A stretch of DNA of 22,326 nt. Source: a virus. The stretch's first letter is position 1, and each line of letters begins with the position of its first letter. The position numbers were made by a program, and so were the translations under genes. Shown piece after piece: positions 1,859 through 16,308 of the stretch. The notes under the pieces are model-generated. The model saw nothing but the letters and a program-made list of their open reading frames with translations. It ran no database searches and was not told the DNA's origin. Location of the stretch: the IMG/VR virus record IMGVR_UViG_3300049207_000004, positions 1 through 22,326 of that record; one strand, 5' to 3'.

Positions 1859-2071
1859 ATGGCTGAAACATCATCACGCAGCAAACCGCCACCGCCCGGC
1901 TTCGCGGAGGTCTTCATCCGCTGGGGATGGCGCGGCGTCGAGACCGTCTTCGGCTCGCGCACCAACTGCAACAAGCGGTGGGTGGCACAGTGCGGTGGCG
2001 GCGAACTGATCCGGCGCCGGCGGGAATATCGATCGAGGCTCAGGGAGATCAGACATGATTGTGCCGCTTGA
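1859..2071 (+). CDS. Hypothetical protein (70 aa)
   Basis: ATG 1859 follows a clear ribosome-binding site (AAGGGGGA). The product is basic, with a Pro-rich start, a central aromatic segment (FIRWGWRGVETVFGSRTNC) and an Arg-rich C-terminal helix. No family was recognised. Its end overlaps the next start by 17 bases, keeping it in the same co-transcribed cluster. Confidence 0.55.
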   Translation: MAETSSRSKPPPPGFAEVFIRWGWRGVETVFGSRTNCNKRWVAQCGGGELIRRRREYRSRLREIRHDCAA

Positions 2072-3913: not shown

Positions 3914-5337
3914 ACGCCCATGCGTCGATCACCCCCGGAATAAGCCACAACGGCGGCCCAGCAATCGGCCCCGAGACGATCAAGCCCCAGCCCGGCCCCC
4001 AGACGGCCTTCCTCTCCAGCGCGGCCGACATCGCCATCTACGGCGGAGGCGCCGGCGGCGGAAAGACCTGGGGTCTGCTGATGGAGCCGCTGCGCCATGT
4101 CAGCAATCCCGGATTCGGCGCAGTGTTCTTCCGTCGCTCCACGGTCCAGATCCGCAACGAGGGCGGCCTGTGGGACGAAAGCGCGGTCCTCTACCCACAG
4201 ATCGGCGGCGACCCGAAAGAGCACACCCTGTCGTGGACCTTTCCGACAGGCTCGTCCGTCAGCTTCGCCCACCTCGAACACGACAAGACCCGGTTCAACT
4301 GGCAGGGCTCGCAGATCCCGCTCATCTGCTTCGACGAGTTGACGCACTTCAGCGCGGTCCAGTTCTGGTACATGGTCAGCCGCAACCGCTCGATGTGCGG
4401 CGTGCGGCCATACATCCGCGCGACCTGTAACCCTGATGCCGACAGCTGGGTCGCCGAGCTCATAGCGTGGTGGATCGACCAGGACACCGGCCTGCCAATT
4501 CCGGAGCGCGCGGGCAAGCTGCGGTGGTTCGTGCGTGTCGGCGAAGATCTGCGCTGGGCGGATGATCCCGCCGACCTCGCCTGCTATACCATGCTGAACG
4601 ACGCGGGCGAGACGGTCCCGATCCCGGCAAAGTCGCTAACGTTCATCCCAGCCAAGCTGACCGACAACAAGGCGCTGATGGCGGCGGACCCCGGCTATAT
4701 GGCGTCCCTGCTGGCGCTGCCGCTGGTCGAACGCGAGCGGCTGCTGGGCGGCAATTGGAAGATCAGACCGGCGGCCGGGCTGTATTTCCAGCGCTCATGG
4801 TGTCGGGTGGTCGACGCGGTGCCGGCGGGCACGAAGTTTGGGCGCGGCTATGACCTTGCCGCGACGCCGCCGACTGCTGACAATCCCGATCCGGACGCCA
4901 CGGCCTCGACCAAGATTGGACGCGCGCCTGACGGGCGCTATATCGTCGTTGACTGTCGCAAGGTGATGACCACGCCTGCGGGCGTAGAGCGGTTCATAAT
5001 GAACACGGCAAGCGAGGACGGAGTTGAGGTGGAAATCTCCCTGCCTCAAGATCCCGGCCAAGCGGGCAAGAGCCAGGTTGCGGCGCTGGTGAAGATGCTC
5101 AGCGGCTATACGGTTCGATCCAGCACGGAGACGGGCGACAAGGTGACGCGCTTCGGCCCGTTCTCCGCGCAGGCTGAGGCGGGCAATGTCGATGTGCTAC
5201 GCGGGCCTTGGAATGATGGATGGTTCAGCGCCCTGGAGGGTTTTCCGGTCGCCAAGCACGATGACGAGGCAGATGCGACGTCACGGGCTTTTGATGTTGT
5301 GTCGCTGCGGAAGGGCTCGGCGTTTGATGTGTTATGA
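3910..5337 (+). CDS. terL: Terminase large subunit
   Basis: This 475-residue protein is the DNA-packaging motor. The ATPase part shows Walker A (GGGAGGGKT, residues 45-53) and Walker B with the catalytic Glu (LICFDE, 138-143). TCNPD at 172-176 is the usual coupling-motif region. The RNase H-like nuclease part has D315 in GYDLAAT, D381 in LPQDPG and the acidic cluster HDDEADATSRA at 450-460, which are the expected three metal-binding positions. Length is normal. GTG 3910 overlaps the previous stop (GTGA). The 3' end overlaps the tail of the opposite-strand gene by six bases, so the downstream portal gene is separated from it by cargo. Confidence 0.95.
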   Translation: MNAHASITPGISHNGGPAIGPETIKPQPGPQTAFLSSAADIAIYGGGAGGGKTWGLLMEPLRHVSNPGFGAVFFRRSTVQIRNEGGLWDESAVLYPQIGGDPKEHTLSWTFPTGSSVSFAHLEHDKTRFNWQGSQIPLICFDELTHFSAVQFWYMVSRNRSMCGVRPYIRATCNPDADSWVAELIAWWIDQDTGLPIPERAGKLRWFVRVGEDLRWADDPADLACYTMLNDAGETVPIPAKSLTFIPAKLTDNKALMAADPGYMASLLALPLVERERLLGGNWKIRPAAGLYFQRSWCRVVDAVPAGTKFGRGYDLAATPPTADNPDPDATASTKIGRAPDGRYIVVDCRKVMTTPAGVERFIMNTASEDGVEVEISLPQDPGQAGKSQVAALVKMLSGYTVRSSTETGDKVTRFGPFSAQAEAGNVDVLRGPWNDGWFSALEGFPVAKHDDEADATSRAFDVVSLRKGSAFDVL

Positions 5338-6162
5338 TTGCGACCCGGTGCGATATCTCGCCCGCTGCCGGGTCGCGTCATCGGGCAGGCCATCTTCGCT
5401 TAAGGCCACCCGCCTGCGAGCTCGGCTTAGTACCTGAGGATCATACCTAATTTCAGAACTCGCCCCCGCATCGCTCGCGAGCCTCGCCGCTTCAATGGCC
5501 GCTGATACATTTCTGAATTTGGGCTCGGTCGCCCTGATCGCGGCCTCGTAAGCAATCGTTGAGAGGCTGCTATGCATTCCGTGGACTGAGCGCTGAAGCT
5601 CTCGCATTTCTTCTGCCATTTGTGAGAGCGACACAGTCTGATCGCCGATTTCGGTCGCCTTGATGTTGCCGAACTGCTGAAGATAGCCGCGGTAGTTTGG
5701 ATTTTTTACGGCCTCCATTGTTCCTGCAATCGTGTCGCAAATGTCGGCTTTCAGACTCATCATTCCGCTAAAGCGAAGTGAGCTCGGGTAAGTCAGGTGT
5801 TTGACCGGCGCGACGTCAAAAGAAAACGGGGTTACGTCGTCCTTAATGATGATCACGGGCTTCTCAAACGCGACGCGCATCCCTAGCTCAAACATAACAT
5901 TGGGGTTTCGGCCGCTGACATCGCAAACGACGATCTCGTCGTCGTACAGATTAGTGACGATATTTCCCTGGATCACGCCCGCAGATTCGCTGTCACTGAC
6001 TAAGCGCGGCAAATAGCCCGCCTCACGGGCGGCATCTGCGATGATCGAGTGAACTTCTTTCCAGTGCCCAGAAGGGTAAGGATCGAAGTCAGCAATAGGG
6101 CGAACGACGCCACAATATCTAACTGACCCAGCCGCCGCGTTGTCGTTTTCCTGCTCTGCCAT
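5332..6162 (-). CDS. Moron: TIR/deoxyribosyltransferase-like protein, possible defence effector
   Basis: This 276-residue protein is encoded against the late operon. Residues about 15-125 look like the TIR-like or nucleoside 2-deoxyribosyltransferase-like fold seen in many defence proteins. There is an opening strand and PYPSGHWKEV, then GNIVTNLYDDEIVVCDVSG, then RNPNVMFELGMRVAFEKPVIIIKDD. D81, N86 and E92 are the likely active-site positions (E in the FELG helix). A helical C-terminal part (about 170-276) could be a sensor or oligomerisation region. NAD or nucleotide cleavage is an inference. It has its own Shine-Dalgarno (AGGGGGAA). It reads as visibly less GC-rich than its neighbours, which suits horizontal acquisition. 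Its stop lies inside the terminase stop region. Confidence 0.75.
   Translation of the reverse strand: MAEQENDNAAAGSVRYCGVVRPIADFDPYPSGHWKEVHSIIADAAREAGYLPRLVSDSESAGVIQGNIVTNLYDDEIVVCDVSGRNPNVMFELGMRVAFEKPVIIIKDDVTPFSFDVAPVKHLTYPSSLRFSGMMSLKADICDTIAGTMEAVKNPNYRGYLQQFGNIKATEIGDQTVSLSQMAEEMRELQRSVHGMHSSLSTIAYEAAIRATEPKFRNVSAAIEAARLASDAGASSEIRYDPQVLSRARRRVALSEDGLPDDATRQRARYRTGSQS
5340..5376. repeat. Perfect 9-bp inverted repeat at the terminase/moron junction
   Basis: GCGACCCGG at 5340-5348 pairs with CCGGGTCGC at 5368-5376 across a 19-base loop. It begins three bases after the terminase stop and lies within the last codons of the opposing gene. Neither strand has a T-run after the stem, so it is not a classic Rho-independent terminator. 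A stem between convergent genes could still slow polymerase in both directions. Confidence 0.55.
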
Positions 6163-6181: not shown

Positions 6182-6194
6182 CTGGCGTCCGTAG
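6182..6194 (+). repeat. Late-boundary motif copy 1: CTGGCGTCCGTAG
   Basis: This copy lies 19 bases beyond the start codon of the reverse TIR-like gene and 33 bases before the portal ATG. It is identical to the copies at 9987 and 13556. GCTGGCG (6181-6187) can pair with CGCCAGC (6209-6215) downstream. Confidence 0.8.
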
Positions 6195-6227
6195 CTTTCC
6201 TGCCTCACCGCCAGCACCGTCGCAAGC

Positions 6228-8132
6228 ATGGGAACCGTCTCGCCACTCCGCCGCTTCGCCGATGGCCTGGCGAATGTCCTCACCGGTCGCGGCACTACCG
6301 TCGATCGCGCCGCCGCGAATTTCTGGACGCGCCGCTTCACCACGCCTGATCAGGTCGAAGCCGCCTATCTCGGCTCCTGGCTGCATCGCAAGATCGTCGA
6401 CATCCCCGCGCAAGACATGTGCCGCGCCGGCCGCGATTGGGACGCGGAAGACGACGAGATCGCCAAGATCGAAGCCGAGGAAAAGCGGCTCGGGCTGTGG
6501 GCGAAGGTCTATGAGGCGCTGACCCTTGGCCGCCTCGGTGGCGGTGCAATCCTGATCGGGCTGGGCGATGATCCGTCTCAGCCCCTGCCCCGCACCATCC
6601 GCCCGCAGCAGATCCAGTATCTGACCGTGCTGTCCCGCTGGCAGTTGTCGATCGGCGACATGGAGATGGACCCGGCTCTGCCGACCTTCGGCCAGCCTAA
6701 ATATTTCGGCCTGTCCGGCTCCGCGCGGGCCATCCGCATCCACCCGAGCCGCGTCGTCTGCTTCAAAGGCCTGCCTGTTCCTGCGATCCGGGTCGCCACA
6801 TGGGAAGAGCGGTTCTGGGGCATGTCCGTGGTGGAAGCGGTGGACGAAGCCGTGCAGCACGCCACTACCGCTTGCGCCGGATTCGCGTCGCTCATCGATG
6901 AGGCGAAGATTGACGTCTATCGCTTCAACGGCACCGTGGAGCAGCTGAGCCAGCCCGGCGGCGAAGAGAAGCTGATGCGGCGCGTCGAGCTGACCAACAC
7001 CGGCAAGAGCGTTCACCGCGCCGTCATCCTCGACAAGGAGGACGAATGGGAGCAGCGCCAGTTGACGCTGGCAGGCGTGCGCGACGTCATCATCACCTAT
7101 GACGCCCGCGTGGCTGGTGCGGCCGACATCCCGGCGACCCGGCTGTTCGGCAAGGCGCCTGATGGCATGAACGCGACCGGCGAAGGTGACCTCGCCAACT
7201 ATTTCCAATCGATCGGCGCGAAGCAGGACATGCAGCTGCGGCCCGCGCTGCAGCAGATCGATGCGGTCATGCTGCCATCCGCTGGCGTGAAGGCTGATCT
7301 GCCGTGGGCCTTCTCCACGCTCATGGTGCTGACCGAGCAGCAGCAGGCGGAGATCGAGGCGAAGGAAGCGGACACGATCACGAAGATCGCCGCCGTCGCC
7401 CTGATGCCTGAAAGCGCGCTCGCCAAGACGGTGCAGAATCGGCTGATCGAAAGCGGGCGCTGGCCCGGCCTTAAGAAGCTGATCGAGGAAGCCGAGAAGG
7501 CGGGTGAAGGCCTGCCCGAAGGCGAAGAAACCGAGCTGGGCATTGTGCCGGTCGGGTCGGAAGGAGGTGATCGGACATCTGCCGGTGCTGGCGGGGGAAC
7601 CCCCGTTAATTCCTCCGCCCGCCGTGCTGCGAATGATGCCGCCGTGTTTTTTGGCGATGCGGCACCGCGCCCGCTCTATGTCCAGCGCAAGCTGTTGAAC
7701 GCCTCCGCGCTGATCGCCTGGGCCAAGGAAAACGGCTTCACGTCGACGCTGGCACCCGACGACGTGCATGTCACGGTGCTGTATTCGCGCTTGCCAGTCG
7801 ACCCGATGAAGATGGGCGAAAGCTGGTCCGGGGACGATCAGGGCCGCATCCGTGTCAAGCCTGGTGGTCCACGGGCGATCGAGCGCTTTGGCGAGAATGC
7901 TGTCGTGCTGCTGTTCGCGTCGTGGGAATTGGAAAGCCGCCACCGGTCCATGGTCGAGGCGGGCGGCAGCCACGACTTCGACAATTATCACCCGCACGTC
8001 ACCCTCTCCTATGAGGTTCCGGCGGACATCGATCTGGCGGCGATCAAGCCATATGCGGGCGCACTGGAGTTCGGGCCGGAACTGTTTGAACCGCTCGATC
8101 TGGATTGGAAGCGGAAGGTGGTGGAGGAATAA
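6228..8132 (+). CDS. Portal protein (DUF1073) fused to Acb1-like 2H phosphoesterase
   Basis: The protein has 634 residues. Residues about 25-430 follow the DUF1073 portal pattern: an N-terminal AAYLGSWLHRKIVDIPAQDM, then GGGAILIGL, WGMSVVEAV and a helical region to about 430. The portal forms the dodecameric DNA gate at the capsid vertex. After a flexible Gly/Glu linker (about 425-470), residues 480-634 form a second domain. It contains PLYVQRKLLN, DDVHVTVLYSRLP (H514, T516) and YHPHVTLSY (H590, T592). These paired H-x-T motifs define 2H phosphoesterases and closely resemble T4 Acb1, which cleaves cyclic oligonucleotides made by CBASS. Databases name such portals 'anti-CBASS Acb1 family'. ATG 6228 has no strong Shine-Dalgarno. 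Confidence 0.92.
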   Translation: MGTVSPLRRFADGLANVLTGRGTTVDRAAANFWTRRFTTPDQVEAAYLGSWLHRKIVDIPAQDMCRAGRDWDAEDDEIAKIEAEEKRLGLWAKVYEALTLGRLGGGAILIGLGDDPSQPLPRTIRPQQIQYLTVLSRWQLSIGDMEMDPALPTFGQPKYFGLSGSARAIRIHPSRVVCFKGLPVPAIRVATWEERFWGMSVVEAVDEAVQHATTACAGFASLIDEAKIDVYRFNGTVEQLSQPGGEEKLMRRVELTNTGKSVHRAVILDKEDEWEQRQLTLAGVRDVIITYDARVAGAADIPATRLFGKAPDGMNATGEGDLANYFQSIGAKQDMQLRPALQQIDAVMLPSAGVKADLPWAFSTLMVLTEQQQAEIEAKEADTITKIAAVALMPESALAKTVQNRLIESGRWPGLKKLIEEAEKAGEGLPEGEETELGIVPVGSEGGDRTSAGAGGGTPVNSSARRAANDAAVFFGDAAPRPLYVQRKLLNASALIAWAKENGFTSTLAPDDVHVTVLYSRLPVDPMKMGESWSGDDQGRIRVKPGGPRAIERFGENAVVLLFASWELESRHRSMVEAGGSHDFDNYHPHVTLSYEVPADIDLAAIKPYAGALEFGPELFEPLDLDWKRKVVEE

Positions 8133-8527
8133 TGGGTGCCGACCTTCCTGAACGTTGGCGCCCGCCGGTTGAGGTTCGTCCCGCCATCCGGGCGGTATGC
8201 GAGAGACTGCTTCCGGTCATTCGCGTTGCCGCGCGCCAGCATGGCTATGCGATCGGCGCCCATGGAAGCTTTGAGCGCGACCTTGATGTAATCGCCTGCC
8301 CGTGGGCTGAGGAAGCAAGCGACGCGAAAGAATTGGTCCGGGCGGTGCAATCCGCCCTCGCTGACGAACTTGGAGTAGAAGTCGTGCGCAGCGGGGATGT
8401 GGGGCAGAAGCCCCATGGTCGACAAGTCTGGACCATGATCATTTTAGACTACGACCATGCGGTAACGGTGCGCAGCACGGCAGGCTCTCACCCTTTCATC
8501 GACTTCTCGGTCATGCCGAGGCGCTGA
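8132..8527 (+). CDS. Nucleotidyltransferase-fold-like phage protein
   Basis: The 131-residue product starts with a TAATG overlap on the portal stop, with GGAGG just upstream. Residues 45-58 (GSFERDLDVIACPW) carry a G-S ... D-x-D arrangement like the first catalytic motif of small (MNT-type) nucleotidyltransferases, with D50 and D52 as metal ligands. A later strand (VWTMIILDYDHAVTVRS) could supply the third acidic residue. Small proteins with an RDLD motif are common near phage portal or lysis genes, but their role is not established. The transferase assignment is inference; the ORF itself is secure. Confidence 0.7.
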   Translation: MGADLPERWRPPVEVRPAIRAVCERLLPVIRVAARQHGYAIGAHGSFERDLDVIACPWAEEASDAKELVRAVQSALADELGVEVVRSGDVGQKPHGRQVWTMIILDYDHAVTVRSTAGSHPFIDFSVMPRR

Positions 8528-8528
8528 A

Positions 8529-9380
8529 GTGCCCCGCTACAGCCTCGCCCTACTCGCCCGCCGCGCTGGAAAGCGCCGCGACATCACCTTGCGGCCGATC
8601 ATCCCGACCCAAGCCCAGGCAACCGACCTTGCCACGATCTACGCTCCCGCCTGGCGCATCTGGGCCGACAGCATCGACCGCATCCTTGTCGGCTACGATC
8701 CGCAGCCCCTGCCCACCGGCGACGCGCTGACGATCGACACCGCCGACCAGGTGCAGACCGCGATCAACAGTGTGGCGAACGAGTTCCTGACGATCCTGAC
8801 CGCGCGGATCACGCCATCGTTGCGCGACTGGATCGTCCGCGCTGAGCGCGTTCACCGCGAAAAGTGGGCCGCCGCTGTGAAGGCTGGCGTCGGTGTGGAT
8901 CTCGACATGATGCTGGGCGCGGGCGAGGTGCAGGAGACGCTGTCCACCTTCCTCCAGCGTAATGTCGCCCTATGCCGAAATGTGAGCGATCAGGCGCAGG
9001 GCCGAATCTCCGACGCCGTGTTCCGCGGCTATGAACGGCGCGCGCCTGTAGCCGAGGTGGCGAAGGAAATCCGCGAGGCGACGGGCATGGGCCGCGATCG
9101 CGCAGTCCGCATCGCTGCCGACCAGAACAGTAAGCTATCGTCCCAGCTGGACCGCGAGCGCCAGGCAGAGGCCGATCTGACGCAGTTCAAATGGCGGCAT
9201 TCCGGGAAAGCGCACCCGCGATCATGGCACCGCGCGCGCGACGGCAACGTTTATGACAGCCGCACCGGCAAGCCCGTTGGTGGCGGCGACGCCATCCCCA
9301 GCGATGATCGCGCAGGGATGGCGCCTTGGTGCGGGTGCCGGGAGCAGGCTTATATCCCGCTGCTGGATGAGGTGGATTAG
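8529..9380 (+). CDS. Minor head protein, SPP1 gp7 / Mu F-like
   Basis: The 283-residue product has a helical N-terminal region and a C-terminal domain from about residue 160. That domain contains the helix DAVFRGYERRAPVAEVAKEI and GMGRDRAVRIAADQNSKLSS. It then has the signature RHSGKAHPRSWHRARDGNVYD (about 223-243), and PWCGCREQAYIP near the end. This matches the SPP1 gp7 / phage Mu F head morphogenesis domain, in which the final W-C-x-C element is usual. Such proteins are few per capsid, sit near the portal, and are often ejected with DNA. GTG 8529 directly follows the previous stop. The gene ends two bases before the reverse moron's stop. Confidence 0.85.
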   Translation: MPRYSLALLARRAGKRRDITLRPIIPTQAQATDLATIYAPAWRIWADSIDRILVGYDPQPLPTGDALTIDTADQVQTAINSVANEFLTILTARITPSLRDWIVRAERVHREKWAAAVKAGVGVDLDMMLGAGEVQETLSTFLQRNVALCRNVSDQAQGRISDAVFRGYERRAPVAEVAKEIREATGMGRDRAVRIAADQNSKLSSQLDRERQAEADLTQFKWRHSGKAHPRSWHRARDGNVYDSRTGKPVGGGDAIPSDDRAGMAPWCGCREQAYIPLLDEVD

Positions 9381-9382
9381 CC

Positions 9383-9976
9383 TCAGAACTCAGACCCGAT
9401 AGCAATGCCGGGAGGAAGCTCAACCCATGTAACCTCTGGGTTTTCAACCGCCCAAAAGAAACGGTACTCGCGCTGCCATCTGTCCTCACGACCTTTTAGA
9501 AAATGATGGCGCTGCATGGTTACCGTGTACCTGACTTCGTCTGCCAGGCTCTGCCTCCCGATCGCCTTGTCGAGCACCGATCGCAGTCTGGCGATGTCAA
9601 CTAGGCGCACGCAGGCCTGCTTCCCCTCCTGTTTCCACCGAGCAACACTGCCACGGCTAATGCTAAGTATCAGTCCATCTTCATCTCTTGCATGGACGGT
9701 ACCGTTCAGCGGGGTCTCACCTAGCGGGGTTCGGACCGTGCAATCTTTAAAGGTGACGATCCCTGCATTCACCTGGAGTGCTCCCCATGTCGGGCCTGGC
9801 CGGAAAACATGCTCTGGGATCCCGGTGCTTTGAAAGATCCTATTCTCATCTGGCGTGAATACACCTTGTCGCGTTTCGGATTTATACCGACTGGCGGGGC
9901 TGATGGGCACCAGGCCGCCATTGATCCACGTCTCAGCGTGAGCAGGTTCGTTTAGGTAGATTCGATAGTCGTTCAT
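9383..9976 (-). CDS. Moron: unrecognised 197-residue protein
   Basis: The ORF runs against the late operon. Its stop is two bases from the minor head gene's stop, and its ATG has GAGGGAG a few bases upstream. The protein starts MNDYRIYLNEPAHAE and has WINGGLVPISPASRY near residue 18. Near the C-terminus it has HHFLKGREDRWQREYRFFW followed by a beta-strand segment. The 'EYRFFW' element and the overall order weakly recall DUF2971-type cargo proteins. No catalytic motif could be assigned, and there is no signal peptide or membrane segment. By position it is a moron that could act in superinfection exclusion or host change; that is inference. It reads less GC-rich than the genes around it. Confidence 0.7.
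   Translation of the reverse strand: MNDYRIYLNEPAHAETWINGGLVPISPASRYKSETRQGVFTPDENRIFQSTGIPEHVFRPGPTWGALQVNAGIVTFKDCTVRTPLGETPLNGTVHARDEDGLILSISRGSVARWKQEGKQACVRLVDIARLRSVLDKAIGRQSLADEVRYTVTMQRHHFLKGREDRWQREYRFFWAVENPEVTWVELPPGIAIGSEF
9422..9444 (+). terminator. Weak terminator-like hairpin inside moron 2 (plus strand)
   Basis: AACCCA (9422-9427) pairs with TGGGTT (9437-9442) over a 9-base loop, and the run TTTT ends at 9444. It lies about 40 bases past the minor head gene and could stop late transcripts before they run through the opposing gene. The stem is short and AT-containing, so support is modest. Confidence 0.3.
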
Positions 9977-9986
9977 CTCGCTCCCT

Positions 9987-9999
9987 CTGGCGTCCGTAG
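9987..9999 (+). repeat. Late-boundary motif copy 2: CTGGCGTCCGTAG
   Basis: This copy lies 10 bases beyond the start codon of the second moron and 33 bases before the DUF2213 gene ATG, the same leader length as at copy 1. It is followed by a small palindrome, GCCTGTCAGGC (10011-10021). Confidence 0.8.
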
Positions 10000-10032
10000 A
10001 AGGTACCGTCGCCTGTCAGGCACACAAGCCCC

Positions 10033-11130
10033 ATGCTTTTTGCCGACGCCCTCACGCTCGACGCCCCCCGCCGCACTAGCGACGGCTACATGGCTGTGCG
10101 GGCAAAGGCGGCGCGCACCGGCACCTATCAATATCTCGGCAGCGAGATCGACCCGCAGAACGCGCACGGCCTGCGCGATGCTGGCATGGTCCATGTCCTA
10201 CGCGATGACGCCGCCGTGTTCGACAGCAAGTCGGCTCATAGCTTCATCGGCAAGCCGATCACGGACAATCACCCGTCCGTCGCGGTGAATGCCGCCAACT
10301 GGCGCGATCATGCCCGCGGCGTCGTCATGGGCGCGATGCGGGACGGCGAATATCTCGCCTTCGATCTGCTGCTGACCGATCGCGACACCATCAGCGCTGT
10401 CGATGCGGGCAAGCGCGAGCTGTCCAACGGCTATGCGGCCGATCTCCAGTTCGGCGACTTCACCGGCCCCGGCGGCGTGAAGTGCGTTGCGCGGCAGAAG
10501 TCCATCACCGGCAATCACGTCGCGATCGTCGACAAGGGCCGTGCCGGCCCCTCCTGCGCCATCACCGATTCCGTCGCACTTTGTGACGCGAACCCCGCCG
10601 CTGTGGCGGACCTCACCCCTCCATTGGAGAAGACTGCAATGAAAATCCGGATCGGCGACGCCGAAGTCGATGCGACCAACGGTGAGGCCGTTCGGATCGC
10701 AGTGGACGCTCTGAATGTGAAGCTCGGCGGCCTGACCGCTGACAACGCCACCCTCAAGACTTCGCTCGAGGCGAAGGACGGCGAGATTGCCGCCCTCAAC
10801 GCCAAGCTGAAGGATGCGGAAGTCACTCCCGAACGCCTGCAGGCTCTGGCTGATGCCCGTGCCAAGGTGATCGCCCAGGCACAGGCACTGAAGCCCGGCA
10901 TCGTCGTGGACGGCAAGTCCGACATTGAGATCCGGAAGGAAGCTGTTTCGGCCAAGCTGGGGGATGCCGCCGCCAACATGGCTGACGCGGCGATCGAGGG
11001 GGCGTTCCTCGCTCTCACCAAGGATGGCGGCTCCGCCGATCCCCTGCGCCAGACGCTGAAGGACGGCCTGACCGCTCCGACCAACATCGCCAACATCCGC
11101 GACGCCGCCCGCGCCGCGAGCAACCGCTAA
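10033..11130 (+). CDS. DUF2213 prohead protease with C-terminal scaffold region
   Basis: The protein has 365 residues. Residues 1-185 match DUF2213, the family of capsid maturation proteases. Likely catalytic positions are H80 (TDNHPS), S131 (RELSNGYAAD) and H162 (ITGNHVAIVD), the His-Ser-His order of herpesvirus-type prohead proteases. Residues about 203-365 are a helical, Lys/Glu/Ala-rich region (DNATLKTSLEAKDGEIAALN) that looks like a scaffolding domain. The protease cuts scaffold and itself during head maturation. It is followed by cement and major capsid genes, the expected order. ATG 10033 has only a weak Shine-Dalgarno. Confidence 0.88.
   Translation: MLFADALTLDAPRRTSDGYMAVRAKAARTGTYQYLGSEIDPQNAHGLRDAGMVHVLRDDAAVFDSKSAHSFIGKPITDNHPSVAVNAANWRDHARGVVMGAMRDGEYLAFDLLLTDRDTISAVDAGKRELSNGYAADLQFGDFTGPGGVKCVARQKSITGNHVAIVDKGRAGPSCAITDSVALCDANPAAVADLTPPLEKTAMKIRIGDAEVDATNGEAVRIAVDALNVKLGGLTADNATLKTSLEAKDGEIAALNAKLKDAEVTPERLQALADARAKVIAQAQALKPGIVVDGKSDIEIRKEAVSAKLGDAAANMADAAIEGAFLALTKDGGSADPLRQTLKDGLTAPTNIANIRDAARAASNR
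10639..11130 (+). CDS. Nested in-frame scaffold protein (predicted internal start)
   Basis: An in-frame ATG at 10639 (residue 203 of the protease gene) has the strong ribosome-binding site GGAGAAG at 10626-10632, six bases before it. The start lies exactly at the junction between protease and coiled-coil parts. It would give a 163-residue free scaffold, as lambda Nu3 is made from inside gene C. The signal is seen directly; use of this start in the cell is inference. Confidence 0.55.
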   Translation: MKIRIGDAEVDATNGEAVRIAVDALNVKLGGLTADNATLKTSLEAKDGEIAALNAKLKDAEVTPERLQALADARAKVIAQAQALKPGIVVDGKSDIEIRKEAVSAKLGDAAANMADAAIEGAFLALTKDGGSADPLRQTLKDGLTAPTNIANIRDAARAASNR

Positions 11131-11142
11131 GGAGGCCGGGAC

Positions 11143-11598
11143 ATGGCTGTCAATCAGGACACTTATCTCACCAACCTCGCTGCTGCCTATGCGGGCATGG
11201 TGGCGAACGGCGAGACTTCGAACCGCATCACGCGCACCTGCGAAGTGGCGGCGGGCATCGGCTTCGGCAAGGTCGTGTTTCGCGGCTCTGGCGATCACGG
11301 CTGCACCACCGACCAGACCGGCACCCCCCAGGTGCTGGGCATCACGATTGCCGACGAAACGCTGGGCCTGCTGCCCGGTGCGGATGCTGACGAATATCAG
11401 CAGTACGACAATGTCGCGATCATGACCGAGGGCGTGATCTGGGTGGTTGCCGGTGAGGCTGTCACCGATGGGGCGCAGGCTTACGTCACCAGCGGCGGCG
11501 CCATCGTCGACACCTCGACCTCGAACACCATCCTGCCGGGTTGGTTCTTCGACACGACCGGCGCGAACGCCGATCTCGTCAAGCTCGCTCGTCGCTAA
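11143..11598 (+). CDS. Capsid cement / decoration protein (gp24-like, DUF2190-type)
   Basis: The 151-residue, beta-rich protein follows a very strong ribosome-binding site (AAGGAGG), in keeping with high expression. It starts MAVNQDTYLTN. It then has short strands such as GIGFGKVVFRG, TPQVLGITIADE and VAIMTEGVIWVVAGEAVTDGA, the layout of structural cement proteins between the scaffold and major capsid genes. It would stabilise the expanded shell. The family assignment rests on pattern and position. Confidence 0.75.
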   Translation: MAVNQDTYLTNLAAAYAGMVANGETSNRITRTCEVAAGIGFGKVVFRGSGDHGCTTDQTGTPQVLGITIADETLGLLPGADADEYQQYDNVAIMTEGVIWVVAGEAVTDGAQAYVTSGGAIVDTSTSNTILPGWFFDTTGANADLVKLARR

Positions 11599-11612
11599 AG
11601 GGGGACATACAA

Positions 11613-12704
11613 ATGCTCATCAATTTCTCTGACGCGACCGGGGGCATGTTCCGGGACGCTGCTGCCTTCCTCGCTGCCGACGCTGCGGCGCAGGCGCTCG
11701 CCTTCGATCGCTGGGCGGCTTATGATGCTGAACTTGCACGGACCTTCGGCGATCGTGCCGACGAGTTCTTTGTCGACGCCCAGGTCGGCCGCGCGTTCCT
11801 GACGCCGCAGCTGTTCCGCATCGAAACGCAGGTCTATCTGCGCCGCTATCCGAACGCAGATCTGAACGGCCTTCTCCCCATCAACACCGATGGCGATATG
11901 TGGGACGTCGGCACCGTGTTCTACAGCATGGACGAGGTCGGCAAGGCCGAGTTCCTGAGCGGCAAGGGCTTCGATATGCCCTATGCCTCGACGCTGACCG
12001 GCCAGAACAGCCGTGGCTTCCACCTGGCCGGTATCGGCTATGAGTGGTCGACGCAGGAACTCCAGCGCGCCGCCAAGCTGGGCCGCTCGCTGTCTGCCGA
12101 CAAGGCTGGCGCTGCTCGTAAGGCTGCTCAGTTCTTCAAGCGCTCGGTTGCCATGACCGGCAAGACGCCGGGCGCATCCTCGTCCGAAAAGGGTTGGACC
12201 GGCTTCGTGAACGACGCGAACGTGCCCGCGGCGAACGTCACTGCCGACGGCACCGGCTCGACCACGACCTGGGCCACCAAGACCCCGGATCAGATCAGCC
12301 GCGATATTTGGGCAGCGGTCAACGCGGTAGAATCGCAGACCGGCGAAACGCACACCGCCACCACCGTCGCGCTGCCGACCGCCAAGCTGCGCTACATCGA
12401 GCAGACCCGCATGTCGGACACCGGCTCGACCATCCTCGCTTACATCCGTGGCAACCGCGACGGCGGCGAGAACATCCAGTTCAAGGCGATCCGCGAATTG
12501 GCTGGCGCTGGCGCATCGGGCACCGAGCGCATGGCGGCCTACGACAGCTCGGAAGAAGTCGTGCAGTTCCACCTGCCCGGCGACCACGAGTTCCTGCCCC
12601 CGTTCCAGAAGTCGTCCATGACCTATGAGGTCGGCGGCATCATGAACGTCGGCGGCACGGAAGTGCGTCTGCCCAAGGCAATCACCTATCGGGATGGTAT
12701 CTGA
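11613..12704 (+). CDS. Major capsid protein (DUF2184)
   Basis: The 363-residue product has the DUF2184 major capsid pattern. There is an N-terminal helical part and VDAQVGRAFLTPQLFRIETQVYLRRYP, then the extended AGIGYEWSTQELQRAAKLG, a long spine-helix region, and a C-terminal FLPPFQKSSMTYEVGGIMNVGGTEVRLPKA. It forms the HK97-fold shell. ATG 11613 is chosen for the AAAGGGGGA site just upstream; a longer in-frame start at 11541 lies inside the cement gene. Codon use is strongly biased to GC-ending codons, as expected for the most abundant virion protein. Confidence 0.9.
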   Translation: MLINFSDATGGMFRDAAAFLAADAAAQALAFDRWAAYDAELARTFGDRADEFFVDAQVGRAFLTPQLFRIETQVYLRRYPNADLNGLLPINTDGDMWDVGTVFYSMDEVGKAEFLSGKGFDMPYASTLTGQNSRGFHLAGIGYEWSTQELQRAAKLGRSLSADKAGAARKAAQFFKRSVAMTGKTPGASSSEKGWTGFVNDANVPAANVTADGTGSTTTWATKTPDQISRDIWAAVNAVESQTGETHTATTVALPTAKLRYIEQTRMSDTGSTILAYIRGNRDGGENIQFKAIRELAGAGASGTERMAAYDSSEEVVQFHLPGDHEFLPPFQKSSMTYEVGGIMNVGGTEVRLPKAITYRDGI

Positions 12705-12706
12705 CC

Positions 12707-13087
12707 ATGGCGAAGTTCACGAACTATGCGCGCGGCCCGCGCGGCATCAGCATGAAGGATGGCTCCACGATCTGGCTCGACCCGGGCCAGTCGGAGGACA
12801 TCAAGAAGGACGACATCGCCGGACCGCTGCCCGATCTGGGCACGGCACCGGCTGTGTCGGCAAATGATGGCGATGACGATCGGGTTGCCGCCCTGGCCGC
12901 CGAGATCGACAGCCTGAAGGCCGATCACGAGAAGGCGCTGGCTGCCGAGAAGCAGCGCGCCGACGATGCTGAGAAGCTGCTGTCTGAAGCGTCCGCCGAG
13001 ATCGACAGCCTGAAGGCTCAGGTCGCGAAGTTCGATGCGGACGGCGATGGCAAGACCGGCGGGTCGAAGGCTGCCGACAAGAAATAA
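12707..13087 (+). CDS. Small head-region protein with C-terminal coiled coil
   Basis: The gene encodes 126 residues and starts two bases after the capsid gene stop. Residues 1-45 (FTNYARGPRGISMKDGSTIWLDPGQ) form a small beta domain, common in short proteins that follow major capsid genes. Residues about 58-115 are an acidic/Lys/Ala coiled coil with the segment AEIDSLKA repeated. The tail is charged and disordered (GDGKTGGSKAADKK). Its exact role is not known; a head accessory or joining role is likely from position. It is the last gene before a terminator. Confidence 0.65.
   Translation: MAKFTNYARGPRGISMKDGSTIWLDPGQSEDIKKDDIAGPLPDLGTAPAVSANDGDDDRVAALAAEIDSLKADHEKALAAEKQRADDAEKLLSEASAEIDSLKAQVAKFDADGDGKTGGSKAADKK
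12897..13017 (+). repeat. 25-bp direct repeat, 32 codons apart
   Basis: An identical 25-base sequence starts at 12897 and again at 12993 and encodes AEIDSLKA in both copies. The offset of 96 bases preserves the reading frame and the coiled-coil register. It points to a recent in-frame duplication or gene conversion within the coiled coil. Confidence 0.8.
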
Positions 13088-13110
13088 CCTCGGTCGCTCT
13101 GGGGGGAGAC

Positions 13111-13143
13111 GGGCCGCTGCTCTATCGGGCGGCGGCCCTTTTC
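13111..13143 (+). terminator. Rho-independent terminator after the head genes
   Basis: GGGCCGC (13111-13117) pairs with GCGGCCC (13132-13138), followed at once by TTTTC. It lies 23 bases after the stop at 13087 and just before the reverse TM2 gene. There is no T-run on the minus-strand side, so it acts on late (plus-strand) transcripts only. Confidence 0.8.
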
Positions 13144-13145
13144 GT

Positions 13146-13481
13146 TCAGGCCATGGCGTCGAGCGTCATCCGCTGACGGAGTGTGTTGACCCGTTCCCTG
13201 ATAATGCCAGGGATAAGGAACAGGTCGATAAACGCCCAAAGACCTGAGATGATGAGACCAATGATTGTGATGCCAAGGATCAGCATCACCGCGCCAGTCC
13301 CCTTTTGCCCCAAGTAGAAGCGGTGAATGCCGAACGCGCCCAAAAACAGGCAAAGCAGATAGGCAGCACCGGTGGACGGCTTCTCGTTAGCGATCCGCTG
13401 CTCAATGAGTATCCGCTGCGAATCCGTGAGGCGCCCGCCCGCCACCTGTTCGGTAGCTGGTGCCGTTGCTTCAATATTCAT
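13146..13481 (-). CDS. Moron: TM2-domain membrane protein
   Basis: The 111-residue protein has a TM2 domain. A first membrane segment is at about 39-53 and contains the signature GAFGIHRFYLG (48-58). After a short turn comes a second hydrophobic stretch at about 63-90, ending in AFIDLFLI, where D86 matches the conserved Asp. The polar N-terminus and basic C-terminal helix are predicted cytoplasmic. TM2 proteins are found in bacteria and phages with no settled biochemical role; in a lysogen one could change the envelope or exclude other phages (inference). It has the ribosome-binding site AGGGGGAATT, shared with the first moron, and a possible promoter upstream. Confidence 0.88.
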   Translation of the reverse strand: MNIEATAPATEQVAGGRLTDSQRILIEQRIANEKPSTGAAYLLCLFLGAFGIHRFYLGQKGTGAVMLILGITIIGLIISGLWAFIDLFLIPGIIRERVNTLRQRMTLDAMA

Positions 13482-13517
13482 AATTCCCCCTATTCTCGCT
13501 CTCGACGAGCGACCCTT

Positions 13518-13548
13518 CGTATACCGCCATATCCTTACAGGCCGTCAA
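13518..13548 (-). promoter_or_regulatory. Possible sigma70-type promoter of the TM2 moron
   Basis: Reading the minus strand, TTGACG (13548-13543) is followed after 19 bases by TATACG (13523-13518), about 37 bases before the start codon at 13481. Sequence fit is good at both boxes but the spacing is one or two bases long. It lies between the boundary motif and the gene, as expected for a self-contained moron. Confidence 0.35.
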
Positions 13549-13555
13549 CGCCTAT

Positions 13556-13568
13556 CTGGCGTCCGTAG
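13556..13568 (+). repeat. Late-boundary motif copy 3: CTGGCGTCCGTAG
   Basis: This copy lies 74 bases beyond the TM2 gene start and 31 bases before the ATG of the connector gene. It is identical to copies 1 and 2. It is followed directly by the small palindrome GGCTGAGCC (13569-13577). Confidence 0.8.
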
Positions 13569-13599
13569 GGCTGAGCCATAGCCGAGGATATGATGCGGC

Positions 13600-14055
13600 A
13601 TGGCTTACTCTGCTCCCGCTAAAGCGACCTTCACCGGCATCTTTCCCGCCTTCACGGCGGTCACCGATGAAGCCTATGCCTTCTGGTCCGCCCGCGCCGC
13701 GCGCATCGTGGACCCCCTCCAGGAATGCCTCGCCGATGATGCCGAACTGGCCTGCATGCTGGCGACGGCGCATTATCTGACGCAGCAGGGCGTAGGCACC
13801 GGCACGGAAAGCGAGATGGCCGCCCAGGGCGCCAGCGGGTTCAAGCGGCTGAAGTCCGGCTCGCTCGAGCTGGAGAAGGCGGACAATGCCAGTGCGGCCG
13901 GCATGGGCGATTGGGGCACGACCAGTTATGGCGTGCGGCTCTATCCGATGCTGAAGGCTTGCGTCGGCGGCCCACGTGTGACCGGCACCGGTTGCGTCGT
14001 CGGAGGTGGCGGGTTCAATGGCTTTGCGGGCGCCATCCCGCCTTGGGTGCGGTGA
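13600..14055 (+). CDS. DUF4054 head-tail connector protein
   Basis: The 151-residue protein begins with helices typical of DUF4054 / gp6-like connectors (FPAFTAVTDEAYAFWSARAARIVDP, then DDAELACMLATAHYLTQQG). It continues with GFKRLKSGSLELE and a segment ending in TSYGVRLYPMLKACVGGPRV, the usual 'T-x-Y-G ... L' end of the family. It would sit below the portal as a ring closing the head. It starts the connector/tail block after the third moron. Confidence 0.85.
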   Translation: MAYSAPAKATFTGIFPAFTAVTDEAYAFWSARAARIVDPLQECLADDAELACMLATAHYLTQQGVGTGTESEMAAQGASGFKRLKSGSLELEKADNASAAGMGDWGTTSYGVRLYPMLKACVGGPRVTGTGCVVGGGGFNGFAGAIPPWVR

Positions 14056-14411
14056 TGGGTCTGTTGGACGGTGGCATCGCGGCGATCTTCGGCGCGGCCT
14101 TTTCTGGTATCTATCTCGACGCCACGCTGCACACCGGCACCGGCGCGCCGGTTTATGGGGCGGGCGGGGTCATCACCGGCTATGCGGGTGGCGATAAGGC
14201 GGTCAAGGTGCAGGTCGATGCGGCGACCGATGCCATGCGCCGCGGCGACGGCTATGCCGAGGGCGACGTCCGGCTCATCATCTTGGCCCAAGGGATCGGC
14301 TCGGTGACGAGCGATCACCGCCTAACGGTCGGCGCTGTCGCCTACAGCCTGCAATCCACCGAGCTGGACGCCGCGGCTTCGCACTGGATCTGCCGCGGGC
14401 GTCGCATCTGA
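14055..14411 (+). CDS. Head-tail joining protein (hypothetical)
   Basis: The 118-residue product starts on the previous stop (TGATG). N-terminal GLLDGGIAAIFGAAFSGIYLDATLH is followed by a beta-rich part (KVQVDAATDAMRRGDGYAEGDVRLIILAQGI) and a C-terminal half with LTVGAVAYSLQSTELDAAASHWIC. The order and style match the head-tail stopper/adaptor genes that lie between gp6-like and gp10-like genes. No single family motif proves this. Confidence 0.7.
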   Translation: MGLLDGGIAAIFGAAFSGIYLDATLHTGTGAPVYGAGGVITGYAGGDKAVKVQVDAATDAMRRGDGYAEGDVRLIILAQGIGSVTSDHRLTVGAVAYSLQSTELDAAASHWICRGRRI

Positions 14412-14821
14412 TGGGCATCAAGTTCGCCGATCGCCACCTGAAGCGGTTGCGCAAGATGACAACCGGGATGCGCAAGGAAGCTGGCAAGTTGGTCCATACT
14501 CTCGCCGACATGCACGCGACCGAGGCGGCGCTCAGCGTCACGACGGGGGCAGTGTCGGGGAAGAACCATAAGGCTTCGCTCCCGGGCCAGCCACCCAATG
14601 CGGACACGCACGGCCTCGATCGATCGGTCCATGTCGAGCAGACCGGGCCGCTGACCGCGCAGTCAATTGCGGATGCGCCCTATGCGGCCGCGCAGGAATT
14701 CGGCACGCAGGAGATGGCGGAACGCCCCTTCATGCGCCCGGCCGCCAAGAAGGTCCGCAAGCAGGCGGACAAACTCGCGAAGGTGGCAGTCGACCGGATC
14801 GTCAAGGGCGGGAAGCTGTAG
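14411..14821 (+). CDS. HK97 gp10-like tail-component protein
   Basis: The 136-residue protein has long basic helices at the start (LKRLRKMTTGMRKEAGKLVHTLADMHATEAA). It has the family ending YAAAQEFGTQEMAERPFMRPAAKKVRKQADKLA, where the 'E-F-G-T ... R-P-F-[ML]-R-P-A' pattern is characteristic of HK97-gp10 morphogenesis proteins. It helps build the neck/tail junction. The start shares one base with the upstream stop. Confidence 0.85.
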   Translation: MGIKFADRHLKRLRKMTTGMRKEAGKLVHTLADMHATEAALSVTTGAVSGKNHKASLPGQPPNADTHGLDRSVHVEQTGPLTAQSIADAPYAAAQEFGTQEMAERPFMRPAAKKVRKQADKLAKVAVDRIVKGGKL

Positions 14822-14832
14822 CAGCGGGGCGC

Positions 14833-14840
14833 CGTCCGTA
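14833..14840 (+). repeat. Degenerate late-boundary motif (CGTCCGTA)
   Basis: Eight of nine core bases are present (CGTCCGTA followed by T). It starts 12 bases after the gp10-like stop and before the next small gene, so its position matches the exact copies. Confidence 0.4.
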
Positions 14841-14895
14841 TCGCTCCCCGCCTTTACCCTTAGCATGGGCACCATGGCGACAGCGTTTTCAGATC

Positions 14896-15120
14896 GTGAT
14901 ACACCTGCCCATTGTGGCAATCCGGCTCAACCTGCATCATCTAGGATTGTGGCTGGACGCCATCATGGAGCGGCTCGAAACGGAGCACGCGCCGACCAAC
15001 TGGAACCTGCTGGAGACGCTCGGCGAAGCGCTGGCCTTTCCGCGCTTCCTGGGGCCAGACAATGACGATCAGCCCGACCTTCCATGTTCGCCAGACGATC
15101 CTGACCGCCCTGCAGGCTGA
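14896..15120 (+). CDS. Hypothetical small protein between gp10-like and DUF3168 genes
   Basis: The frame beginning at GTG 14896 encodes 74 residues with natural composition (IVAIRLNLHHLGLWLDAIMERLETEH) and strongly GC-rich third codon positions. It overlaps the next gene by 59 bases. No clear ribosome-binding site precedes it; ATG 14968 is an alternative start. A competing frame with ATG 14865 ends in an ATGA overlap with the next gene, but its product has a shadow-like composition. I favour the GTG frame. Confidence 0.45.
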   Translation: MIHLPIVAIRLNLHHLGLWLDAIMERLETEHAPTNWNLLETLGEALAFPRFLGPDNDDQPDLPCSPDDPDRPAG

Positions 15121-15469
15121 TGCGGGCGTCCTAGCGTTCATCCCGGCCGACAGCCTCTATCCGAGCAAGACCCCGAACAATCCCGCCAAGCCCTTCGGGC
15201 GCTATGGCGCGGAAACCAATATCCCGTCACGCCCGTCGGGCTGGCGCGGCGGCGAAGTCTCGACCGCCTATCATGTATGGGTCGGCGTGACCGACGCTAT
15301 CCCGGACCCCAAAACCTATTGCGAGCAGTCGGTCGACGCGATCGCCGAAGCTATCGACGCCCTGCCCGACTGCACCGTCGAGCGCACGCAGCTGCTGGAG
15401 GATGCTTCCGAGCCGGACCTCTGGCACGGCGTCGTCCAGTTCACCTTTACCGCGCTTGCCGAAATCTGA
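15062..15469 (+). CDS. DUF3168 tail completion protein
   Basis: The 135-residue product matches DUF3168. It begins with an N-terminal helix (FHVRQTILTALQADAGVLAFI) and VDSLYP-like turn, and has YHVWVGVTD. It continues with CEQSVDAIAEAIDALPDC and ends with the strand WHGVVQFTFTALAE. Members cap the tail tube at the head-proximal end, as in HK97/SPP1-type and gene-transfer-agent gene orders. The gene directly precedes a boundary motif, which starts one base after its stop. Confidence 0.88.
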   Translation: MTISPTFHVRQTILTALQADAGVLAFIPADSLYPSKTPNNPAKPFGRYGAETNIPSRPSGWRGGEVSTAYHVWVGVTDAIPDPKTYCEQSVDAIAEAIDALPDCTVERTQLLEDASEPDLWHGVVQFTFTALAEI

Positions 15470-15470
15470 T

Positions 15471-15479
15471 CGTCCGTAG
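15471..15479 (+). repeat. Late-boundary motif copy 4: CGTCCGTAG ('empty' site)
   Basis: The core begins one base after the DUF3168 stop codon, with no cargo in between. The next gene starts 63 bases downstream. The palindrome AGGCTGACGCCT (15480-15491) follows immediately. Confidence 0.75.
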
Positions 15480-15542
15480 AGGCTGACGCCTGCCTGATCC
15501 ATGTGAAGCGGGACGACAAATCCCCTCGCAGGAGCCAGGCAC

Positions 15543-16061
15543 ATGACCGCAGGCGTTACCCTCCAGACCAAGCTCTCGATCGCGGGGGGCCTCGAAGGCG
15601 CCGCCGCCAAGGGCAGCATGAAGCTCAAGCTCGACGACATCCTCGAATCGCTGGAGCTGACTCCCGGCACCAACACGACCGGCAAAGCGGATTTGCTCTA
15701 TACCGCCACCCGGACGGTCAACGCGTCGAGCAACGAGGATCTGGATCTTGCCGGCGCGCTCGCCAATGCCTTCGGCGCGACCATCACCGCCGCCGAGATC
15801 GTCCTGATCTTCATCAAGGCGGCCGCGGGCAACAGCAACAACGTCAATGTTAGCCGACCGGCCTCGAACGGTTTTGTCGGGCCGTTTCTCGCGGCCGGCG
15901 ATGGCGTGAAGATCGCGCCCGGCGAATGGGCCGTGTTCCAATCCAAGGCGGGCTGGGCCGTGACGCCCGGCACCGGTGATCTCCTCAACGTCGCCAACAG
16001 CGGCGCCGGCTCCGGCGTGACTTATGACATCCTGATCGTCGCTCGTTCTGTGGTGGCCTGA
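15543..16061 (+). CDS. Virion structural protein (unrecognised)
   Basis: The 172-residue protein follows a good ribosome-binding site (CAGGAG). It is Ala/Gly/Thr-rich and appears all-beta. Strands surround TGKADLLYTATRTVNASSNEDLDLAG, EIVLIFIKAAAGNSNNVNVSR and a C-terminal YDILIVARSV. The GNSNNVNVSRP and FVGPFLAAGDGVKIAPGEW segments are typical of proteins that decorate tails or heads. Its place between tail completion and tail tube genes supports a structural role. No family could be named. Confidence 0.65.
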   Translation: MTAGVTLQTKLSIAGGLEGAAAKGSMKLKLDDILESLELTPGTNTTGKADLLYTATRTVNASSNEDLDLAGALANAFGATITAAEIVLIFIKAAAGNSNNVNVSRPASNGFVGPFLAAGDGVKIAPGEWAVFQSKAGWAVTPGTGDLLNVANSGAGSGVTYDILIVARSVVA

Positions 16062-16062
16062 C

Positions 16063-16308
16063 ATGGGCCGCCGCATCATCTTCGAGCGGACCTATAATCA
16101 CCGCTGGCCTTCGCGGGCGATCACCGAATTTCGGGCATCCGACACCCCCTTGCTCGTCAAGCGCGAGGTCCAGAAGGCGGCGCTTGAAGGGGGCTATGCC
16201 CGGTTCGCGACGAAGGCCGAGTGTTCGGCGGCGGACCGGGAGCTGGAGGCTGTGCCGGCGAGCGATGCGACACCTGATGCTGATCCGGAGCAGGTCGGGC
16301 GTCCGTAG
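16063..16308 (+). CDS. Hypothetical protein (81 aa)
   Basis: The start lies one base after the previous stop. The product begins GRRIIFERTYNHRWPSRAITEF and has a helix TPLLVKREVQKAALEGGYA. The acidic, Pro/Asp-rich tail looks disordered. Short proteins of this type (a basic beta start, then a helix with Ala/Gly) often precede tail tube genes in prophages. The stop codon TAG is itself part of a boundary motif, so the last codons CGT-CCG are fixed by that element. Confidence 0.6.
   Translation: MGRRIIFERTYNHRWPSRAITEFRASDTPLLVKREVQKAALEGGYARFATKAECSAADRELEAVPASDATPDADPEQVGRP
16298..16308 (+). repeat. Late-boundary motif copy 5: GGCGTCCGTAG ('empty' site)
   Basis: The motif overlaps the end of the 81-residue ORF and supplies its TAG stop. 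The tail tube gene starts 68 bases downstream. There is no cargo here. Confidence 0.75.

Follow-up and report, generated by a model that had tools for sequence, protein, structure and literature searches.

The window, a 22-kb stretch of DNA (22,326 nucleotides [nt]) that makes up the whole of IMG/VR virus record IMGVR_UViG_3300049207_000004, is 96% coding and 4% noncoding. It derives from a temperate alphaproteobacterial phage and encodes that phage's terminase, portal, DUF2213 protease, capsid, and tail proteins. A short repeated element, CGTCCGTAG (here called the box), marks boundaries of its late genes. We consider it probable that the box is the upstream element of the late promoters, most likely bound by R, a small protein encoded in the window, which would recruit host polymerase, with each phage lineage holding its own pair of R and box. 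This reading is built on the array of boxes, the geometry of box, −10 element, and ATG, the division of start codons by distance and Shine-Dalgarno sequence, the alternative box types, and the association and co-inheritance of box type with R; the start sites, the binding of R to the box, and its role as an activator and not a repressor are what we infer from these sequence data. The features concerned are listed below, with offsets (+) counted from the G of GTA in the box.

1859..2071, plus strand: gene R, a 70-amino-acid helix-turn-helix-like protein and candidate reader of the box.
6186..6194, plus strand: box CGTCCGTAG, portal promoter; portal ATG 6228 at +37.
6215..6220, plus strand: predicted −10 element CACCGT at the fixed offset of +24, with a predicted leaderless start at 6228.
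6228..8132, plus strand: portal protein gene, downstream of box 1.
9991..9999, plus strand: box CGTCCGTAG, DUF2213 protease promoter; ATG 10033 at +37.
10020..10026, plus strand: predicted −10 region GCACACA, a weak match.
10033..11130, plus strand: DUF2213 protease-like gene, downstream of box 2.
11613..12704, plus strand: major capsid protein, the query used to collect relatives.
13560..13568, plus strand: box CGTCCGTAG, head-tail connector promoter; ATG 13600 at +35.
13589..13594, plus strand: predicted −10 element TATGAT, close to consensus.
14833..14841, plus strand: variant box CGTCCGTAT; the likeliest gene start is ATG 14874, at +36.
15471..15479, plus strand: box CGTCCGTAG of a probably leadered gene; ATG 15543 at +67, with an AGGAG Shine-Dalgarno sequence ahead of it.
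16300..16308, plus strand: box CGTCCGTAG, promoter of a tail-tube-like gene; ATG 16377 at +72.

As the preliminary description of this DNA had reported, CGTCCGTAG occurs in five exact copies on the plus strand (6186, 9991, 13560, 15471, and 16300) and in none on the minus strand, and three of the five lengthen to CTGGCGTCCGTAG (6182-6194, 9987-9999, and 13556-13568). The copy at 14833, CGTCCGTAT, has one mismatch to CGTCCGTAG and is counted as the sixth; a second one-mismatch site, CGTCCGTCG at 10274, lies within a gene. The claim that copies are confined to gene boundaries needs a small correction: five of the six (14833 included) are fully noncoding, and the copy at 16300 lies within the end of the open reading frame (ORF) at 16063-16308, whose stop codon is the TAG of the box. 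Third-order Markov shuffles (n = 200) averaged 0.025 forward copies of CGTCCGTAG, with a maximum of 1, in agreement with the earlier statement that the count is beyond chance. The most surprising 9-mer in any shuffle scored 7.2, and CGTCCGTAG itself scored 10.9; because no shuffled 9-mer equals this score, the signal holds after all 9-mers are tested. A chance origin of the array was ruled out by the copy count and the shuffles. The description was also right that the box is neither a Shine-Dalgarno sequence nor a complete sigma70 box, and the recognition of a real late-gene boundary element stands. What it missed is that the box appears to be one half of a promoter, with a −10 element at a fixed 20-nt distance, as well as the interchangeable box types, the predicted leaderless mRNAs, and the small phage protein encoded in the window.

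Relatives were gathered by their capsid protein, which yielded 80 viral and 14 bacterial contigs, mostly from Sphingomonadaceae and Brevundimonas; a nucleotide-level search for close phages of the window found none. One of the viral loci, L001, is a longer contig with the window's sequence and carries an S24-type (CI) repressor gene upstream. Another related locus, the prophage L091, lies in the record of Sphingobium scionense DSM 19371. Many relatives hold several copies of CGTCCGTAG on the late-gene strand, ahead of portal, protease, connector, and tail genes, and the box recurs at matching gene boundaries down to 40 to 45% capsid identity; the portal genes of L002, L003, L034, and L044, for instance, are preceded by the same box as the portal gene of the window. 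Other relatives lack CGTCCGTAG and have different repeated, strand-biased boxes in the same places (TGACGGCGGTAA, TGACGGAGGTAA, CGACGGTAAAC, GGGGTATAAA, GAACCTACA, CGCCGTAATCAC, CAGCCGTAATC, and CCCTCCGTAAC). Nine box types, including CGTCCGTAG, TGACGGCGGTAA, GAACCTACA, and CAGCCGTAAT, were defined in 40 related phages, and one new type described below brings the number to at least ten. The absence of CGTCCGTAG from close relatives, which the preliminary description would have taken as a refutation, is a misleading measure, as capsid-close relatives often hold another box there. In a third group of relatives, to which Brevundimonas prophages belong, genes have plain Shine-Dalgarno starts and boxes are absent.

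With the G of GTA as the anchor, we aligned 165 nonredundant sites representing the nine box types. The dinucleotide TA falls at exactly +24 in 59% of these sites, compared with a mean of 2.7% over the offsets examined and never more than 10% elsewhere. The hexamer at +24 carries the sigma70 −10 signature TA(n4)T (T−12 in 59%, A−11 in 81%, and T−7 in 41% of the 165 sites); this signature reaches 100% at all three positions in type D and 91% in type F and is weaker in the window's own type A, for which automatic per-locus box finders requiring exact TA spacing proved too noisy. No TTGACA-like −35 hexamer was found at these sites, that position being occupied by the lineage-specific boxes. On this sequence evidence, the box is most likely the −35-region half (−41 to −33) of late promoters with a sigma70-like −10 element. 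The distance from box to ATG ranges from 26 to 87 nt, and that from box to −10 is constant, which argues that the element belongs to the promoter.

Because the −10 hexamer begins at +24, the transcript start is predicted at about +36. Positions of the first ATG cluster at +36 to +38, with none at 42 to 51 and a second group from 52 onward. Shine-Dalgarno sequences precede 6 of 107 near ATGs and 31 of 39 far ATGs (P = 2 × 10−18), with 31% for other ORFs of the same contigs. Since the near ATGs coincide with the predicted transcript start and mostly have no Shine-Dalgarno sequence, many late mRNAs should be leaderless; on the simplest reading, transcripts from these promoters would be either leaderless or provided with a leader long enough for a Shine-Dalgarno sequence. 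Sites 1 to 4 of the window fit leaderless starts, and sites 5 and 6 would be leadered.

All boxes within one genome are of the same type, and this type does not follow capsid ancestry. Box type changes 20 times on the capsid tree (20.4 when shuffled) versus 9 times on the R tree (minimum, 8; shuffled, 20.3); L002, L003, and L004, for example, have almost identical capsids, and the box of L004 is different. Uniformity within each genome without relation to capsid ancestry makes a trans-acting factor likely. Several loci set R apart from the portal: L004, L005, and L080 have near portals with different R proteins and boxes of types E, B, and D, respectively; L080 and L093 have their R clade and box D in common but not their portal; and L089, whose portal falls in the A/F clade, has an R in the clade with most type B rows and a type B box. 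Small terminases and the CII-like regulator introduced below do not track box type.

R is encoded by one of the last early genes, directly before the terminase. It was spotted by reading through the early genes, and its family, confirmed starting from G002, comprises 48 ORFs in related loci. Searches of Pfam, NCBIfam, PHROG, and PDB gave no match for R, a sequence profile against PDB yielding chance hits only. Comparison of its fold with PDB and with viral models produced no hit at E ≤ 0.001; its best viral matches, all weak, include a small terminase, a homeodomain-type protein, and one resembling a transcription regulator. The predicted model consists of three helices in a helix-turn-helix-like arrangement (predicted local distance difference test [pLDDT] score, 82.8), and the family is under purifying selection (ratio of nonsynonymous to synonymous polymorphism [pN/pS], 0.16 to 0.28). 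Upstream coverage was available for 57 loci; of these, 41 have both box and R, 12 have neither, 3 have a box only, and 1 has R only, placing R in 41 of 44 box-bearing loci versus 1 of 13 unboxed ones. Two of the three box-only loci (L052 and L077) have R further upstream once more DNA is examined, the R-only locus (L043) in fact bears CGGCGGTAAC boxes, and R is absent from the fuller records of five unboxed phages. In ten extended genomes, the only families common to all beyond the virion genes are R and one CII-like regulator. Among the bacterial genomes, R occurs in 11 of 11 outside Brevundimonas and 0 of 3 Brevundimonas; it was found in at least 12 of 301 Sphingomonadaceae genomes (20 candidates per genome scored), a rarity expected for a prophage gene.

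Several further observations concern R. A CGTCCGTAG box lies directly upstream of the R gene at position 2749 of L047, suggesting autoregulation in that phage, and the same arrangement is seen in L086. In two phages, R is fused to a second domain (L019, 1337-2239; L066, 690-1457) which resembles the adjacent small protein of other phages (2318-2545 in the window) and matches phrog_8252; only this second domain of the fusions, not R, matches a PHROG. The Synechococcus phage Ssp-JY40 (L125; PP438430.1) carries R, a capsid near those of these alphaproteobacterial phages, and the box GCGGCGGGAA, which it shares with L035; the phage may actually infect a companion bacterium.

The pairing of R and box was put to a prediction test by searching with R alone, which yielded phages outside the earlier set. 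The expected box was present in ten independent phages, and an eleventh had a new type. L128 and L129, with a window-type R, bear CGTCCGTAG; L135 to L138, L141, and L142, with another R, bear CGGCGGTAA, in a single copy in L137. The bacterial prophages L165 and L166 likewise bear CGGCGGTAA, as do their nearest R neighbors except L020, whose box, CGGAGGTAA, is a one-base variant of it. L136 and L138 have R and CGGCGGTAA together with unrelated heads and no recognizable portal or capsid of this kind. The eleventh phage, L168, has an intermediate R and the new box CCAGCGTCGGTAA in unchanged geometry. In R-bearing L173, coverage stops short of the late genes.

Some results weigh against the proposal that R reads the box. 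Four prophages (L164, L167, L170, and L171) encode R yet lack a clear box array: none shows more than one recognizable box, and L164 and L171 each have a single candidate site. They are either genuine exceptions or prophages in decay. Promoters of the CGTCCGTAG type have weak −10 elements, the counts associating R with boxes ignore phylogeny, R is a short protein with a poorly resolved tree, and the R of L082 resembles that of L002 although their boxes differ. The portal tree, with 10 changes of box type, fits nearly as well as the R tree, so that a linked gene remains a candidate reader, and the CII-like regulator occurs in each of the ten extended genomes but not in unboxed ones.

The last two points are what chiefly speaks for the best of the alternatives, that the late promoters are as proposed but are read by the CII-like regulator, a small terminase, or another early gene, with R hitchhiking in the terminase-portal module. 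We regard this as unlikely, though worth keeping in view. Phages with CGTCCGTAG have at least three different types of small terminase, and the CII-like regulator is disfavored because L103 (type A) and L121 (type D) encode copies of it with similar helix-turn-helix regions despite different boxes. Linkage to the portal is countered by L004, L005, and L080, where portals are close while R and boxes differ, and by L136 and L138, where R and boxes stay together despite unrelated heads.

Much less probable is that the boxes are repressor operators or stoperators silencing late genes in the prophage. Mycobacteriophage stoperators are asymmetric, lie in one orientation, are dispersed at boundaries, and differ in type among phages; the boxes share all of these properties, and the phage encodes an S24-type CI repressor. 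A roadblock, however, would have no need of a fixed distance to the −10 element and start codons, and phages sharing CGTCCGTAG have repressor genes of differing types.

Marginally weaker still is the idea that an alternative sigma factor or activator of the host uses the box as a host promoter element. The −10-like element is indeed of host type, and the scanned proteins included no recognizable phage sigma factor or RNA polymerase, but related Sphingomonadaceae hosts harbor prophages of different box types. CGTCCGTAG is also depleted in host chromosomes and concentrated in prophage: as a check proposed with the preliminary description, one host was found to hold 12 copies in 6 Mb, 4 of them in prophage, against 113 for the reversed-pattern control.

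An action in RNA or translation, as a start-associated sequence or hairpin leader, is very improbable: the element does lie near start codons, and short hairpins can be drawn by eye in some copies, but its spacing is fixed to the −10 element and not to the ATG, the box would be untranscribed given the predicted start site, and an Rfam scan gave no relevant RNA family and no match near the box. For the same reason of spacing, an RNA hairpin with a conserved loop, seen by eye in the six window copies, was dropped as a candidate.

We propose that R and box would work as follows. Early transcription would reach R, produced from the last early genes before the terminase, and after induction R would attach to the box upstream of the −10 element and bring in host RNA polymerase. 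The box would stand in for an ordinary −35 element while the host sigma70-type −10 (T−12, A−11, and T−7) is kept, and the late operons would be switched on together. Transcription would begin about 36 to 37 nt past the G of GTA, which for many genes is where the ATG begins; for the remainder the start would lie 16 to 50 nt ahead of the ATG, with a Shine-Dalgarno sequence between. Each lineage would hold its own R/box pair, which would explain why a genome keeps one box type even after capsid exchange.

Other features of these loci lie beside this scheme. In the window, minus-strand cargo-like genes (5332-6162, 9383-9976, and 13146-13481) each directly precede a CTGGCGTCCGTAG promoter, and the late genes behind them therefore retain a promoter of their own. 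In front of the DUF2213 protease gene, the −10 element is often flanked by an inverted repeat that touches the ATG, as in CATGCCCGC-acaac-GCGGGCATG; examples lie at about 8332-8400 in L078 and 8340-8400 in L024. Arms of at least 6 nt occur in 40% of protease promoters versus 2.3% of shuffles (3% for portal genes), and their sequences vary between phages. L063, L065, L067, and L069, which have neither R nor box, have in common another element upstream of the protease gene, GTCAA...TTTCGTTTG..., perhaps belonging to another activator system. Beyond the boxes, strand-biased repeated 9-mers occur in L034 (TGCGGGACGGT-like, 7 to 8 copies) and L003 (GTTACCACC, 6 copies).

More broadly, the prospect that widespread temperate phages of alphaproteobacteria run their virion genes from many leaderless promoters, through a lineage-specific box code read by a tiny phage protein, with box and reader switching together, seems to us evenly balanced. 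If true, the code would insulate the late program of each phage from relatives in the same host, allow capsid modules to be traded while promoters are recoded, and explain how late genes stay under one switch in phages that exchange such modules. It would offer a natural series of matched activator/promoter pairs for studying the evolution of DNA specificity, possibly usable as orthogonal expression parts for sphingomonads; it would predict leaderless late phage mRNAs at high frequency and assign an unnamed protein family, missing from current libraries, a function open to testing.

No description of the boxes or R was found in the open-licence literature, but comparable systems are known. In T4 middle promoters, a MotA box centered near −30 replaces the −35 element and the sigma70 −10 is retained, through sigma appropriation by AsiA and MotA (PMC6755090). 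The promoters described here would similarly combine a candidate phage-factor box at the −35 position with a sigma70 −10 at a fixed distance, start and binding being predicted. They differ in that the box, at −41 to −33, is displaced upstream by about 7 bp and serves virion genes, and in having at least ten interchangeable box types and predicted leaderless starts. No MotA or AsiA homologue was recognized among about 20 early, terminase-region, and cargo proteins scanned, a part of the phage's proteins; for this reason and the more upstream box, we do not class these promoters as T4 middle type. The start-associated sequences (SAS) and extended SAS of Cluster K mycobacteriophages are short, asymmetric, one-orientation repeats directly upstream of starts, the extended repeats varying by subcluster (PMC3203893). 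The boxes are likewise short, asymmetric, in a single orientation, and ahead of gene starts. The Cluster K SAS, however, consists of a single conserved 13-mer, GGGATAGGAGCCC, located just ahead of starts and with no known reader; CGTCCGTAG is a different sequence, as the preliminary description had noted, lies about 36 nt from the start rather than directly upstream of it, is tied to a −10 element, and has a candidate reader encoded nearby. Caulobacter GafY/GafZ and Rhodobacter GafA are phage-derived regulators of gene transfer agents that act at late-type promoters with host RNA polymerase (PMC11150451, PMC9638019). R would be a further alphaproteobacterial phage regulator at late promoters, likened to these by role and not by sequence; the GafY/GafZ system uses one main promoter with IHF and an antiterminator, in contrast to the many small promoters here. 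The boxes would thus belong to a known kind, activator-dependent phage promoters, and what appears new is the interchangeable code together with the predicted leaderless transcripts.

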